A DNA stretch of 64,000 nucleotides from Actinoplanes octamycinicus. Its GTDB lineage: Bacteria > Actinomycetota > Actinomycetes > Mycobacteriales > Micromonosporaceae. How positions within the stretch are numbered: position 1 is the first letter of the stretch; every line of letters begins with the position of its first letter. Of the stretch, positions 55,277 to 60,790 are shown piece after piece. The position numbers and the translations under genes were made by a program. Where the stretch lies: positions 4,507,501 through 4,571,500 of the forward strand of contig NZ_JACHNB010000001.1 in assembly GCF_014205225.1 (NCBI RefSeq), given 5' to 3'. The notes beneath the pieces are model-generated. The model had not been told where the DNA came from. It worked only from the letters and a program-made list of their open reading frames with translations, and made no database searches.

Positions 55277-58096
55277 GTGCGCGAAGAATCCACCGGACAT
55301 CCGGACCCGATCGCATCGCAGGAATCCGCGGAGCCGCCGAAACGGCGGCCGCGCCGGCGCCGGATGGTGGCCACCGCCCTCGCCGTGCTGACGTTCTGGT
55401 GCGCGGCCGGCGTCGGCGCCGCGGAGGCCTACGTCGAGTCCGTGCCGGTGCCCGGCGCCGTGCCGCAGCCGCAGGCCTCGGTCCTGTACTACCGGGACGG
55501 GAAGACCATCCTGGCCCGGGTCGGCGCGACCGACCACAACGACGTGCCGCTCTCGGCGATCTCGCCGGCCCTGCGTCAGGCCGTGCTGCTCGCCGAGGAC
55601 CGTGACTTCTACGAGCACGCCGGGGTGTCGCTGCGCGGCGTGGCCCGGGCCGTGGTGGCCGACGTGAGCGGCAAGCGCGAGGGCGCCTCGACGATCACCC
55701 AGCAGTACGCCCGGAACGCCTTCCTGACCCAGCGGGTCACCGTCGACCGGAAGATGCAGGAGCTGGCCCTCGCGATCAACCTGGAGCGGCAGTACGGCAA
55801 GGACGAGATCCTCGCCCGGTACCTCAACACGATCTACTACGGCCGCGGCGCGTACGGGATCGCCGCCGCCGCCAACGCCTACTTCGGGGTGACCCCGGAC
55901 CGGCTGGACTTCGCGCAGAGCGCGGTGCTCGCCGCGGTGATCAAGGACCCGTGGGGCTACGACCCGGACCACGACCCGACGGCCGCCCGGCGGCGCTGGA
56001 ACTGGCTCTTCGCGACCGCCCGGGACGCCGGCCTGATCGACCCGGCCACGGTGACCTACCCGAACGTCCGGCCGGCCGGCTCGGCGATCGGCGGACCGCT
56101 CGGCCTGGTCGTCGACCGGGTGGAGCGGGAGCTGGCCGGGCACGGGATCACCTCGCAGCAGCTGCACACCCAGGGCCTGCGGGTGGTCACCACGCTGGAC
56201 CAGCCGGCCCAGCAGGCCGCGGTGAACGCGGTCCGGGCGCAGCTGCACGGGCAGCCGGCCGGGCTGCAGGCCGCCCTGGTCGCGCTGGACCCGGCAACCG
56301 GCGGGGTGCGCGCCTACTACGGCGGCGAGCGCGGCAGCGGATACTTCGACAACGCCGCGGCGGCGCACCCGGCGGCGTCCACCTTCAAGCCGATCGTGCT
56401 GGCCGCCGCGCTGGGCCAGGGGATCGCCTACCGGTCGCGCTGGGACGGCAGCTCGCCCCGGCTGTTCCCGGACCGCGGTGTGCCGCTGCGCAACCACGAC
56501 GACCGGCAGTGCCCGGAGTGCACCTTGCAGCAGGCGATGGTGGACTCGCTGAACACCCCGTTCTACGCGGTGACCGCCCAGATCGGACCGGGCCGGGTGC
56601 GGGACATGGCGGTGCGGCTGGGCATCCCGGAGAAGTACGACGGCCACAAGTCGCTGGTCGACGTCAAGGGCGACCCGGCGCCGGGGAAGACCCGCGGCGA
56701 CATCTCGCTGGGCCGGTACCCGGTGGTCCCGGGCGACCTGGCGACCGTCTACGCGACCCTGGCCGGCGACGGAGTCCGCCACCAGCGGCACTTCGTCGAG
56801 TCGGTGAGCGGCGCCGGCGGCATCGGATACACCACCCGGGACGTCGCGACCACCGTGGTCGACCGGAAGATCGCCGCGGACGTCACCACCGTGCTGAAGT
56901 CGGTGGTGACCGAGCGCGGCATCACCCCGGGCCGTCCGGCGGCCGGCAAGACCGGCACTCAGCAGTACCGGGACACCCGGGACAACCAGGACGCCTGGAT
57001 GGCCGGCTACACCCCCGAGCTGGCCAGCGTGGTCTGGATCGGCAAGGCGAAACCGGGACCGTTGCGCGACGCCCGGAACAAGCGGATCGAGGGCGACACC
57101 ATGCCGTCCTCGATCTGGCGCGACTTCACCCGGTCCGCCCTGCAGGGCCGGCCGGCCACCCCGCTGCCCCAGCCGGCGCGCGTCGGGCGCACCGACGCGG
57201 GCGACTTCGGCAAGGCCGGGCACGAGGTCAAGAACCCGGACTCGGTCGCCGGCCGGCACGCCGCCGCGGCCGGCTACCAGCCGGTGGTGCACACCGAGCA
57301 CAGCGGTAAGCGACTCGCCCTGACCTTCGACGACGGCCCGTCCGAGGACACCCCGGCGGTCCTGGACCTGCTGGCGAAATACCACGTCAAGGCCACCTTC
57401 TGCGTGGTCGGCGAGAACGCCGAGTGGTATCCCCAGCTGGTGCGCCGGATCGTCGCCGAGGGGCACCGGCTGTGCAACCACTCGATGCACCACGACGATC
57501 TGGGCATCATCTCCGAGGCGAAGAGCCGCGCCGACATCGCCGCGGCGGACGCGGCGATCGCCGAGGCCGCGCCGGGCGCCACGGTGACCTACTACCGCGC
57601 GCCGTACGGCGACTTCGGTCCCTCGGCGCGAGCCGGCGGGAAGGCCGGGCACACGCCGCTGGGCTGGGTCGTCGACCCGGACGACTGGCTGCTGCCCGGC
57701 GCCGGGGTGATCGCGTCCCGGATCAAGCAGCAGCTCACGCCGCGGGCGGTGGTGCTCGTCCACGACGGCGGCGGGGACCGGAAGCAGACCGTGGTGGCGC
57801 TGCGCACGCTGATCCCGGAGCTGCTCGCCGAGGGGTGGAGCTTCGACCACCCGGAGACCACGGTGGCCGCTCAGCCGCTGCCGGGCCCGAAGCCCAGCGT
57901 CACCGGCTCCGCGCCGTCCGGGGCCGCGGCGCCGTCCACCGCGCCGGCCGCGCCGTCCGGGACTGCGCCGCCGTCCGCGCCGGTCGCGCCCTCCGTCCCG
58001 GTCTCGGGCGCCGCGTCTGCATCACCGTCGATGTCGTCGTCCGCGCCGGGACAGTCCGGGTCGAAGCCCGGTCCGAAGGGGCCGGGCGGTCGGTGA
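55277..58096 (+). CDS. fusion of class A penicillin-binding protein (GT51 + transpeptidase) with NodB-type polysaccharide deacetylase
   Basis: A 939-residue protein in one uninterrupted frame. A basic N-terminus (RRPRRRR) and membrane helix (31-50) place the rest outside. GT51 glycosyltransferase: catalytic Glu107 in LLAEDRDFYEHAGVS and GASTITQQYARN. Transpeptidase: S368-T-F-K371, S424-L-N426, K558-T-G-T. From ~678 to 855 a NodB/CE4 domain: TFDDGP (Asp685, Asp686), NHSMHH (His735, His739 metal ligands), RAPYGDF (Arg774), WVVDPDDW and LVHDG (His829). A Pro/Ala/Ser tail ends it. It should polymerise and crosslink peptidoglycan and deacetylate a glycan, probably newly made peptidoglycan or an associated polymer. 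GTG 55277 is used. Class A proteins usually end after the transpeptidase domain. Confidence 0.93.
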   Translation: MREESTGHPDPIASQESAEPPKRRPRRRRMVATALAVLTFWCAAGVGAAEAYVESVPVPGAVPQPQASVLYYRDGKTILARVGATDHNDVPLSAISPALRQAVLLAEDRDFYEHAGVSLRGVARAVVADVSGKREGASTITQQYARNAFLTQRVTVDRKMQELALAINLERQYGKDEILARYLNTIYYGRGAYGIAAAANAYFGVTPDRLDFAQSAVLAAVIKDPWGYDPDHDPTAARRRWNWLFATARDAGLIDPATVTYPNVRPAGSAIGGPLGLVVDRVERELAGHGITSQQLHTQGLRVVTTLDQPAQQAAVNAVRAQLHGQPAGLQAALVALDPATGGVRAYYGGERGSGYFDNAAAAHPAASTFKPIVLAAALGQGIAYRSRWDGSSPRLFPDRGVPLRNHDDRQCPECTLQQAMVDSLNTPFYAVTAQIGPGRVRDMAVRLGIPEKYDGHKSLVDVKGDPAPGKTRGDISLGRYPVVPGDLATVYATLAGDGVRHQRHFVESVSGAGGIGYTTRDVATTVVDRKIAADVTTVLKSVVTERGITPGRPAAGKTGTQQYRDTRDNQDAWMAGYTPELASVVWIGKAKPGPLRDARNKRIEGDTMPSSIWRDFTRSALQGRPATPLPQPARVGRTDAGDFGKAGHEVKNPDSVAGRHAAAAGYQPVVHTEHSGKRLALTFDDGPSEDTPAVLDLLAKYHVKATFCVVGENAEWYPQLVRRIVAEGHRLCNHSMHHDDLGIISEAKSRADIAAADAAIAEAAPGATVTYYRAPYGDFGPSARAGGKAGHTPLGWVVDPDDWLLPGAGVIASRIKQQLTPRAVVLVHDGGGDRKQTVVALRTLIPELLAEGWSFDHPETTVAAQPLPGPKPSVTGSAPSGAAAPSTAPAAPSGTAPPSAPVAPSVPVSGAASASPSMSSSAPGQSGSKPGPKGPGGR

Positions 58097-58207
58097 TCGC
58101 ACTGGTCGGCTCACGCTACGTCGTCGCGGCGGTACGGGAGCGTCCCAACGTAGATTTCCGGGCGCGGACGCCCTAGAGTGTGCGGACCGATCGATCGAGG
58201 AGGGGCC

Positions 58208-60790
58208 GTGGCCGATTCGCCACCCGAGCAACGACATCCGTCGGACCCGCCGCCACCAGCGGCACCCGAGGCGGCGCCGCAACTTCTGGTGATGCCGCCG
58301 ACCAGCGCCATCCCGTCAATGGTGTGGCCAGGCTCGGACGGCGAGCCGGCCTGGGCCATCCCGGTGCAGATCCCGTCGGGGACGCGGGGTTACGCGCTGT
58401 TCGTGCCGATGGTCGCCGTGCAGGAGGCGGCCGGCTCGGTCCCGGCCGCCGCCTCACCCGCGACCGCGACTCCGGCCTCGGCGGCGGCTGCGGCCCCGGA
58501 CGCGACGATCGCGCCCGCCGCGACCATCGCCCCCGCCGCGACTGCGGCTCCGGCCGCGACCGTCGCACCCGTCGCGACGGCCGCTGCTTCCGCTGAGGCC
58601 GCTGTCGCTGCTGAGGCTGAGGCGTCGGCTCAGGCCGCGTCGGCTCAGACCGCGTCGGCTCAGACCGCGTCGGCTCAGACCGCGTCGGCTCAGACCGCGT
58701 CGGCTCAGACCGCGTCGGCTCAGACCGCGTCGGCTCAGACCGCGTCGGCTCAGACCGCGTCGGCTCAGACCGCGTCGGCTCAGACCGCGTCGGCTCAGAC
58801 CGCGTCGGCTCAGACCGGGTCCGTTCAGGCCGGTGCGGCCGGTGCTGCTGCTCCCGGATCCGACAAGTCCGAAGAGTCGGATGGGGCGCGATCCGGCGAC
58901 CAGACGGCTTACCCTTCGGCCGGCGCGGGAGCGGCCGAGAAGCCCGAGTCGCCCGCCCCCGCCCGCACCCCGGCCGACTCGGTGACCGCCGGTCCCGGCC
59001 CCCGGATCACCCCGGCCACCGCCCGGCCCACGCCGGCCGCCGCAGGGCCGGCTTCGACCGCCGGGCCGGCTTCGGCTGCCGGGCCGGCTTCGGCTGCCGG
59101 GTCCGCGCCGTCCACCGCAAGGCCCGCTTCGACTTCCGGCTCCGCGCCGGCCGCCGCTCGCCCCGGCCCGCCGGAGGAGTGGCCCGCTGCGGCCTTCCCG
59201 CAGACCCCGCAGAATGGACCGCAGCGCCCTCCGCAGCGCCCCCAGCCGGTCCGGCACTTCGGCGCCTACCAGCCGGAGCCGACCCCGTGGCAGCGCTTCC
59301 GGGACAAGCACTGGCCAGGACCGGCGGCCACCCGCGGCCGCGCCGTCCCGGCCGGTGTGCTGGCCGGCGCGCTCGGCGTCGCCTGTTTCGTCCCGCTGGA
59401 CCGGGTCGGCATCGGCTGGTTCCTCGGCTGGCTGGTGCTGACCGCCGGCGTCATCGGCGCGGTCCGGCGCTCCGCCGACCTGTCGCACGCCGAGCGGTGG
59501 ATCCGTTCCGGCTGGGCGGTAGCGGCGCTCCTCCTGCTCGCCGTCCCGGCCATCCGCAACGCCTGGTGGCTGGTGACGTTCAGTGTGCTCGGCGCGCTCG
59601 GCTGCGCGGCGCTGGCCATCGTCGGCGGCCGGCAGATCCGGTCGATCCTGTTCAGCCTGGTGGCCGCCCCCTACGCGGCCTTCCGTGGCATCCCGTGGGT
59701 GCGCAGTCACCTGCAGTCCAGCGGCCGCAACCCGGGGATGGCCCGGCGGATCGGCTTCTCGATCGGTCTCACCGTGCTGGTCCTGCTGGTCTTCGGCGCG
59801 CTGCTCTCCTCGGCCGACGTGGTCTTCTCCGACTCGCTCGGCAAGATCGTGCCCGATCTCAACGTCGGCTCGGTGTTCCGCTGGGTCTTCCTGGCCGTGC
59901 TCGGTGGCCTGATCGCGGTGGCCGGCATCTACACGCTGTCCGCCCCGCCGGTCACGTCCAGCCTGGACACTCCGGGCCGGGGCCGGTTCGGCCTGGTCGA
60001 GTGGGCGCCGGCCGCCGCCGCGCTGGTGCTGCTCTTCGGCGGTTTCGTCGCGGTGCAGTTCACCGTCCTCTTCGGCGGCAACAAGCACGTCCTCAAGACC
60101 AGTGGGCTCAGCTACGCCGAGTACGCCCGGAGCGGTTTCTGGCAGCTGGTCGCGGTCACCCTGCTCTCGCTGGCGCTGATCGCCGGACTGGCTCGCTGGG
60201 CCCGGCGCGACGAGCCGGTCGAGCGGGTCCTGCTGCGCGTCCTGCTCGGCCTGGTCTGCGCGCTGAGCGTGGTCATCGTCGCCTCGGCGCTCTCCCGGAT
60301 GTGGGAGTACCAGCGGGTCTACAGCTTCACCGGTGAGCGGATCTTCGTGATGTCCGCCGAGCTGCTGCTCGGCACCGTCTTCGTGATGATCGCGCTGGCC
60401 GGCATCCGGTGGCGCGGCCGGTGGATCCCGCGGGCCACCGTGGCGCTGGCTGTGCTGATGCTGCTCGGCCTCGCCGGCCTCGACCCGGAGGGTTACGCGG
60501 CCAGCCGCAACGCCGCCCGTTACGAGGGATCCGGCAAGATCGACGCGTGGTACCTGCGGGCGCTCTCCGCGGACGCCACCCCGGCGCTGACCGAGCTGCC
60601 CGATCCGGTCCGCCGCTGCACGCTGAGCTGGATCGCCGACGACCTCAGGGAACCCGATCCCTGGTACGCCTGGAACCTCGGCCGGCAGCGGGCCCGGGCG
60701 GCGCTCAAGAAACTGCCGCCGGGCGCGATCGGCAACCACAAGGACTGCCGCCGCGCCGACCAGTTCGACCTGCCGAAGAAACGTCGCTGA
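58208..60790 (+). CDS. DUF4173 multi-pass membrane protein with VNTR-encoded linker
   Basis: An 860-residue protein; GTG 58208 has an ideal GAGGAGGGG site. Residues 1-375 are Ala/Pro/Ser/Thr-rich and cytoplasmic, including a pentapeptide ASAQT repeated 12 times (about residues 144-203). From about 378 there are 11 or so membrane helices, with the DUF4173 segment LSADVVFSDSLGKIVPDLNV and LSYAEYARSGFWQLVAVTLL, then a family end LDPEGYAASRNAARYEGSG and a short extracytoplasmic tail. Function of the family is unknown. It is followed by a strong terminator and belongs to no clear operon. Confidence 0.88.
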   Translation: MADSPPEQRHPSDPPPPAAPEAAPQLLVMPPTSAIPSMVWPGSDGEPAWAIPVQIPSGTRGYALFVPMVAVQEAAGSVPAAASPATATPASAAAAAPDATIAPAATIAPAATAAPAATVAPVATAAASAEAAVAAEAEASAQAASAQTASAQTASAQTASAQTASAQTASAQTASAQTASAQTASAQTASAQTASAQTASAQTGSVQAGAAGAAAPGSDKSEESDGARSGDQTAYPSAGAGAAEKPESPAPARTPADSVTAGPGPRITPATARPTPAAAGPASTAGPASAAGPASAAGSAPSTARPASTSGSAPAAARPGPPEEWPAAAFPQTPQNGPQRPPQRPQPVRHFGAYQPEPTPWQRFRDKHWPGPAATRGRAVPAGVLAGALGVACFVPLDRVGIGWFLGWLVLTAGVIGAVRRSADLSHAERWIRSGWAVAALLLLAVPAIRNAWWLVTFSVLGALGCAALAIVGGRQIRSILFSLVAAPYAAFRGIPWVRSHLQSSGRNPGMARRIGFSIGLTVLVLLVFGALLSSADVVFSDSLGKIVPDLNVGSVFRWVFLAVLGGLIAVAGIYTLSAPPVTSSLDTPGRGRFGLVEWAPAAAALVLLFGGFVAVQFTVLFGGNKHVLKTSGLSYAEYARSGFWQLVAVTLLSLALIAGLARWARRDEPVERVLLRVLLGLVCALSVVIVASALSRMWEYQRVYSFTGERIFVMSAELLLGTVFVMIALAGIRWRGRWIPRATVALAVLMLLGLAGLDPEGYAASRNAARYEGSGKIDAWYLRALSADATPALTELPDPVRRCTLSWIADDLREPDPWYAWNLGRQRARAALKKLPPGAIGNHKDCRRADQFDLPKKRR
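58622..58831. repeat. 15-bp tandem repeat, 12 perfect copies
   Basis: GCGTCGGCTCAGACC is repeated without a single change from 58637 to 58816, with one diverged unit on each side (58622, 58817). It encodes ASAQT in frame. Perfect identity implies recent expansion by replication slippage, so copy number should vary. Confidence 0.95.

Follow-up and report, generated by a model that had tools for sequence, protein, structure and literature searches.

A PonA1-like class A penicillin-binding protein with a C-terminal CE4 deacetylase domain in Actinoplanes octamycinicus and its relatives

One gene of the window (the whole stretch of 64,000 nucleotides of Actinoplanes octamycinicus DNA that was analysed) encodes a PonA1-like class A penicillin-binding protein (PBP), with a GT51 glycosyltransferase and a transpeptidase, that carries a CE4/NodB domain at its C-terminus. 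We consider it probable that this protein is a membrane-anchored peptidoglycan synthase with its own N-deacetylase, which edits nascent peptidoglycan. The reading frame shows no internal stop across its 939 residues. The topology is expected to be type II, with the catalytic domains outside the membrane. The gene and its parts are as follows, with the basis of each in brackets.

55277..58096, forward strand: whole gene, class A PBP and CE4 deacetylase, 939 aa, GTG start (ORF, Pfam)
55352..55441, forward strand: predicted N-terminal membrane helix, residues 26–55 (AlphaFold helix; hydrophobic stretch)
55508..56014, forward strand: GT51 peptidoglycan glycosyltransferase domain, residues 78–246, catalytic Glu107 (PF00912)
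56273..57022, forward strand: penicillin-binding transpeptidase domain, residues 333–582, SxxK 368, SxN 424, KTG 558 (PF00905)
57194..57292, forward strand: linker, variable and partly disordered, residues 640–672 (pLDDT, identity, dN/dS)
57284..57856, forward strand: CE4/NodB polysaccharide deacetylase domain, residues 670–860 (PF01522, model, match to BC1960 4l1g)
57884..58093, forward strand: C-terminal tail, disordered and Pro/Ala/Ser-rich, residues 870–939 (pLDDT, dN/dS)

Pfam confirms the claim of an earlier note on this DNA that GT51, transpeptidase and NodB/CE4 domains lie in one frame. PF00912 covers residues 78–246 (E 1e-57) and PF00905 residues 333–582 (E 1e-25), both far over the cut-off, and PF01522 covers residues 675–785 with E 6e-33 and 113.9 bits against a cut-off of 23.1. 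The catalytic motifs were located by script. Glu107 of GT51 is part of the motif EDRDF, and the transpeptidase contains STFK at 368–371, SLN at 424–426 and KTG at 558–560. An N-terminal helix followed by GT51 with the glutamate in an ED motif, together with SxxK, SxN and KTG, identifies the protein as a class A PBP. The CE4 family has five motifs: TFDDGP, HxxxH, RxPY, a DxxDW-like and an LxH-like motif. Here TFDDGP includes Asp685 and Asp686, His735 and His739 lie within HSMHH, DPDDW starts at residue 800 and provides Asp803 and Trp804 of the catalytic set, and Arg774 and His829 are in place. With all five motifs and PF01522 over its cut-off, the domain is assigned to CE4/NodB. Every motif named in the earlier note is present, although its numbering of TFDDGP as 685–688 should be 683–688. 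By NCBIfam the protein is related to PBP_1a_fam (TIGR02074) but stays below the cut-off of that family, with 369.5 bits against 508.75. The scores for NodB (TIGR04243, 166.7 bits against 240) and for the PgdA equivalogs NF045820 (88.4 against 800), NF045821 (102.9 against 400) and NF045822 (75.2 against 400) are lower than the cut-offs too, so that none of these models classes the fusion as PgdA.

The fusion is found in many relatives. In a search against 5.8 billion proteins 7995 candidates were scored, and the best 120 of 1091 relatives were taken. Among these 120 clusters all three domains are present in 103, one of them (P0002) being the window protein's own cluster; two (P0108 and P0110) have transpeptidase and CE4 without GT51, and in 15 CE4 is absent. 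A repeat search from the distant member P0102 gave 101 fused proteins among its best 120 matches, none of them new. Named fused members come from Actinoplanes, Krasilnikovia, Nucisporomicrobium, Symbioplanes, Winogradskya, Mangrovihabitans and others, and from Dactylosporangium; the three that were looked up, Actinoplanes oblitus, Dactylosporangium aurantiacum and Mangrovihabitans endophyticus, are Micromonosporaceae. Most of them are annotated in general terms, for example "transglycosylase domain-containing protein" or "membrane peptidoglycan carboxypeptidase", and a few names mention NodB or polysaccharide deacetylase. At the level of genomes, 60 of the genus were sampled, and in 22 of them, that of A. 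octamycinicus included, a query across the junction matches over its full length. A second sample of 81 genomes contained 4 of the same genus (again with the own genome), and the junction was found in two of the 77 that represent other genera of the family; these two belong to a single genus. The distribution of the fusion gene is patchy. A search of genome contigs matched STITQQY, a common GT51 motif, in at least 80 loci, and none of the 80 loci kept has FDDGP in the PBP frame.

An error joining two genes near 57240–57300, which the earlier note had named as a possible refutation, is excluded. In 21 further genomes of the genus, several of them single-contig, the frame is open across the junction and free of stops, and GC3 is 0.93–1.00 in 60-codon blocks on either side of the join (0.85 in the last block of the gene). 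With the three domains also together in the clusters described above, the sequencing join is rejected, and the probability left to any sequencing or assembly artefact is negligible.

The AlphaFold model of the whole protein (mean pLDDT 85.4) contains helix 26–55 and three folded domains; its pTM is 0.63, so the domain geometry is not established. The pLDDT falls below 50 at residues 648–654 of the linker and for nearly all of residues 877–939 of the tail. Because the best 50 matches of the whole model in the structure library were all PBPs, the CE4 domain was folded separately, with pLDDT 91.8 and pTM 0.89. Foldseek matches this predicted domain to BC1960 (4l1g) with E 6e-17 and TM 0.77/0.82, at 1.8 Å and 34% identity, which defines a CE4 fold. 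BC1960 is a peptidoglycan GlcNAc deacetylase and the nearest solved CE4 enzyme both by sequence and by fold. In the order by sequence it is followed by the acetylxylan-esterase-type 7y51/7fbw (labelled xylanase/chitin deacetylase, also acetylxylan esterase), and then by PgdA, ArCE4A and PdaC, while by fold chitin deacetylases are also close. N-glycolyl muramic acid is present in Actinoplanes. As BC1960 is the nearest by sequence, peptidoglycan GlcNAc is slightly favoured over MurNAc as the substrate. One muropeptide table from Streptomyces has an entry for MurNAc deacetylated to MurN (PMC8092295), so the sugar could be MurNAc as well.

Selection on the gene was measured with our own Nei–Gojobori script, comparing the window gene with its orthologues in two genomes (G055 and G039, values in this order). 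The dN/dS is 0.101 and 0.144 for GT51, 0.179 and 0.203 for the transpeptidase, and 0.105 and 0.161 for CE4; linker and tail reach about 0.5–0.6, the tail being near 0.6. CE4 is under purifying selection similar to that on GT51. The linker has a mean pairwise identity of 0.44 versus 0.66–0.73 for the domains. Residues were compared in a motif table that, with the window protein added, has 106 fused and 15 unfused rows and also includes the protein's own cluster P0002. Glu107 is a glutamate in all 103 fused rows that reach this position, and in 105 of the 106 fused rows none of the eight scored CE4 residues is lost. The exception, P0119, retains a remnant of the CE4 domain without most of the catalytic residues, and its PBP motifs are intact. 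The CE4 and GT51 residues are also intact in each of the 22 fused copies from genus genomes. Complete motifs, the Pfam matches and dN/dS together suggest that the three domains of the window protein are catalytically intact, in agreement with the earlier note.

The view that all parts look catalytically intact applies to the window protein but not to all its relatives, since among those with all parts the transpeptidase can decay. The Ser or Lys of SxxK is gone in 14 of 105 CE4-fused rows; Ser368 is replaced by Ala in 13, and Lys371 is lost in P0079. Judged by these motifs, the transpeptidase in the 14 rows should not work, and within proteins that keep all parts it is the transpeptidase, rather than the deacetylase, that appears as the decaying part. 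The conservation of CE4 holds only where CE4 remains, because a protein that has lost the domain entirely no longer counts as fused. Such decay was not shown to be peculiar to CE4 fusions: Ser or Lys of SxxK is also lost in 4 of 56 plain relatives, versus none of 67 beta-lactamase-like fusions (described below), all counts being per row and the rows not independent. A pair of proteins in Krasilnikovia MM14-A1004, the fused P0045 with Ser replaced by Ala and the plain P0121 with intact motifs, gave the idea that decay occurs only where a second PonA-type PBP provides cover. This idea is unsupported. In the genus sample only one of the 22 fused copies has a dead SxxK (G012), and as this genome has no second PonA-type match at E 1e-60, the loss is not explained by cover from a paralogue. 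In 16 genus genomes with both copies the fused copy always keeps Ser and Lys, and in one of them (G053) KAG replaces KTG. All 27 unfused copies read in this sample have intact motifs.

The history of the PBP part was analysed with FastTree on 143 rows (98 fused) with four outgroups, and the active-site columns were removed beforehand. The first PBP tree used 14 loci from the STITQQY search and three own-genome PBPs as outgroups and was made without P0108, P0110, P0071 and P0002; the second was also made without P0028, P0029, P0082 and P0094, with 4 outgroups from the STITQQY loci. Fused and unfused relatives group together, apart from the four outgroups. By parsimony, the label "fused" takes 6 changes and the label "SxxK lost" takes 8, of which about 7 are placed in fused proteins and one in the plain P0104 (Lys to Asn); this contrast is an unfair one, as P0215, P0229 and P0230, which make up three of the four plain rows that have lost Ser or Lys, are missing from the tree. 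Several plain lineages nest inside well-supported fused clades, so the fused PBPs alone are not a clade, and the CE4 part can be dispensed with. The CE4 domain was probably lost in these nested lineages. In the CE4 tree, which includes 29 of the 106 fused rows (own-genome L010, L011, L013, L014 and L015, with no tblastn match, are absent), the 29 domains form one clade with SH-aLRT 88. Its neighbours, and the nearest relatives of the fused CE4 among the tree rows, are stand-alone CE4s (L112, L135–L141) that have no PBP part, open frames of 245–370 codons and a signal-like stretch ahead of the domain. With at most 38 candidates scored per genome, 8 of the 38 genus genomes that lack the fusion gave such stand-alone relatives (E up to 1e-55), and none of the 22 that carry it did. 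Because the fused CE4s form one clade, a single fusion event within Micromonosporaceae appears likeliest. The simplest account would be that a free deacetylase joined a PonA-type PBP once and that losses came later.

We infer the activity, substrate, timing and benefit of the fusion from sequence, and tethered strand modification would be its likeliest purpose. GT51 would polymerise lipid II outside the membrane, and the strand would then pass the transpeptidase. The CE4 domain, on a flexible linker of about 30–50 residues after the transpeptidase, would deacetylate some of the amino sugars of the new strand, and the free amines would lead to muramidase resistance or altered autolysis. Crosslinking would be done by the protein's own transpeptidase or by other enzymes; as other enzymes may crosslink, the transpeptidase could decay while polymerase and deacetylase stay. 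A wider proposal is tentative and may well not hold: in the Actinoplanes group the PonA-type polymerase would be a chassis for alternative C-terminal wall enzymes, either CE4 or a serine hydrolase of beta-lactamase-like type. The CE4 form would then have polymerisation and deacetylation as its core, with D,D-transpeptidation optional, and would make deacetylated strands in one step; other enzymes, for instance L,D-transpeptidases, would do part of the crosslinking.

Editing of the nascent strand has to be weighed against other uses of the same domains. The PBP may merely place CE4 at growth zones, where it would act on mature or denuded glycan, in autolysin control or in priming of polymer attachment, uncoupled from polymerisation. 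The variable linker would give the reach for this, and the presence of the related stand-alone CE4s in some fusion-less genomes suggests that an untethered enzyme may fill much the same role. In E. coli, denuded strands are the target of SddA, which also modulates the amidases that cleave the septum (PMC12440217). On the other side, the strict conservation of the GT51 glutamate goes beyond what an anchor needs, yet wall synthesis alone would explain it. We regard this use as rather unlikely. Less likely again is a deacetylase whose substrate is some polymer besides peptidoglycan, with the PBP as its anchor. CE4 substrates do vary, 7y51/7fbw rank second by sequence and chitin deacetylases are close by fold, but the best relative by both measures acts on peptidoglycan GlcNAc, and a peptidoglycan polymerase is an odd choice of anchor. 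A CE4 domain that is not used catalytically, as a structural or regulatory leftover, would fit the motif-less remnant in P0119 and the nested relatives without CE4; with the eight residues kept in all fused rows but one and a dN/dS of 0.11–0.16, it is very improbable.

Coupling of a PBP to a deacetylase has a parallel without fusion in Listeria and is therefore not peculiar to the fusion, which corrects the interpretation in the earlier note. According to a review (PMC6127315), PgdA activity in Listeria is regulated by GpsB and PBP1A (PBP A1). The functional link there is between a class A PBP and a peptidoglycan deacetylase that are separate proteins, whereas here both lie on one polypeptide. 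For mycobacterial PonA1 (PBP1A), the solved chain is the transpeptidase part only. To our knowledge this protein has no CE4 domain. PgdA and BC1960 have the CE4 fold and motifs in common with the fused domain, which differs in its covalent attachment to a polymerase; we know of no fusion of either to a PBP. In the open-licence PMC literature we found no description of the GT51-transpeptidase-CE4 architecture. Each of the enzymes and a functional PBP-deacetylase coupling are already known. New are the covalent attachment, its history and a transpeptidase that decays in place while the polymerase and deacetylase next to it stay intact.

With a separate synthase and deacetylase it is difficult to find out whether peptidoglycan is deacetylated while it is being made or later. 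The natural fusion holds both on one chain, in which each active site is separately switchable and the tether can be cut, and relatives already provide forms in which the motifs of the transpeptidase or of the deacetylase are dead, or in which the deacetylase is absent. An expendable transpeptidase also bears on the division of labour among class A PBPs.

The genus has a second PonA-type PBP, with a C-terminal beta-lactamase-like domain (PF13354). An SxxK...SDN motif is present in 24 of its 27 loci. PF13354 was confirmed in all five motif-positive loci scanned (L172, L179, L183, L185 and L190) and is missing in the two motif-negative loci scanned. Two of these genes are placed as follows.

L172:471-3299, forward strand: beta-lactamase-like PBP fusion (Pfam)
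L179:339-3320, forward strand: beta-lactamase-like PBP fusion (Pfam)

Among the best 120 clusters of a separate search, 67 (P0135–P0201) are three-domain beta-lactamase-like fusions, two of them named partial, and a KNGW box occurs in 66 of the 67. L020, from the STITQQY search, also gave a named fusion of this kind. This counterpart suggests that class A PBPs may gain extra wall enzymes more often than recognised.

The surroundings of the fusion gene vary, and no conserved operon was found in 12 neighbourhoods. Two of the 12 share most of the neighbours seen in the window, one has only the upstream GT4 gene in common and one a DUF4153-like gene. Five (L196, L197, L198, L200 and L201) share two upstream genes of about 415–445 codons; in L201, the one locus tested, Pfam identifies both as Ig-like (Big_10)-YkuD L,D-transpeptidases. 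Upstream of the fusion gene, one simple pattern gave no SigmaE-like promoter, and a sigma-70-like pattern, which says little for an actinobacterium, gave none either. In the A. octamycinicus genome itself GT51 occurs at four places and CE4 at fifteen. Three proteins of this genome (L004, L007 and L008) combine a CE4 domain on the N-terminal side with a synthase-like glycosyltransferase of family GT2. They are like the fusion in joining CE4 to a synthase-like enzyme and differ in the GT2 family, in the N-terminal position of CE4 and, presumably, in the polymer. Downstream of the fusion gene, at 58178-60790 on the forward strand, lies a DUF4153 membrane protein whose N-terminal part contains a series of SAQTA repeats.
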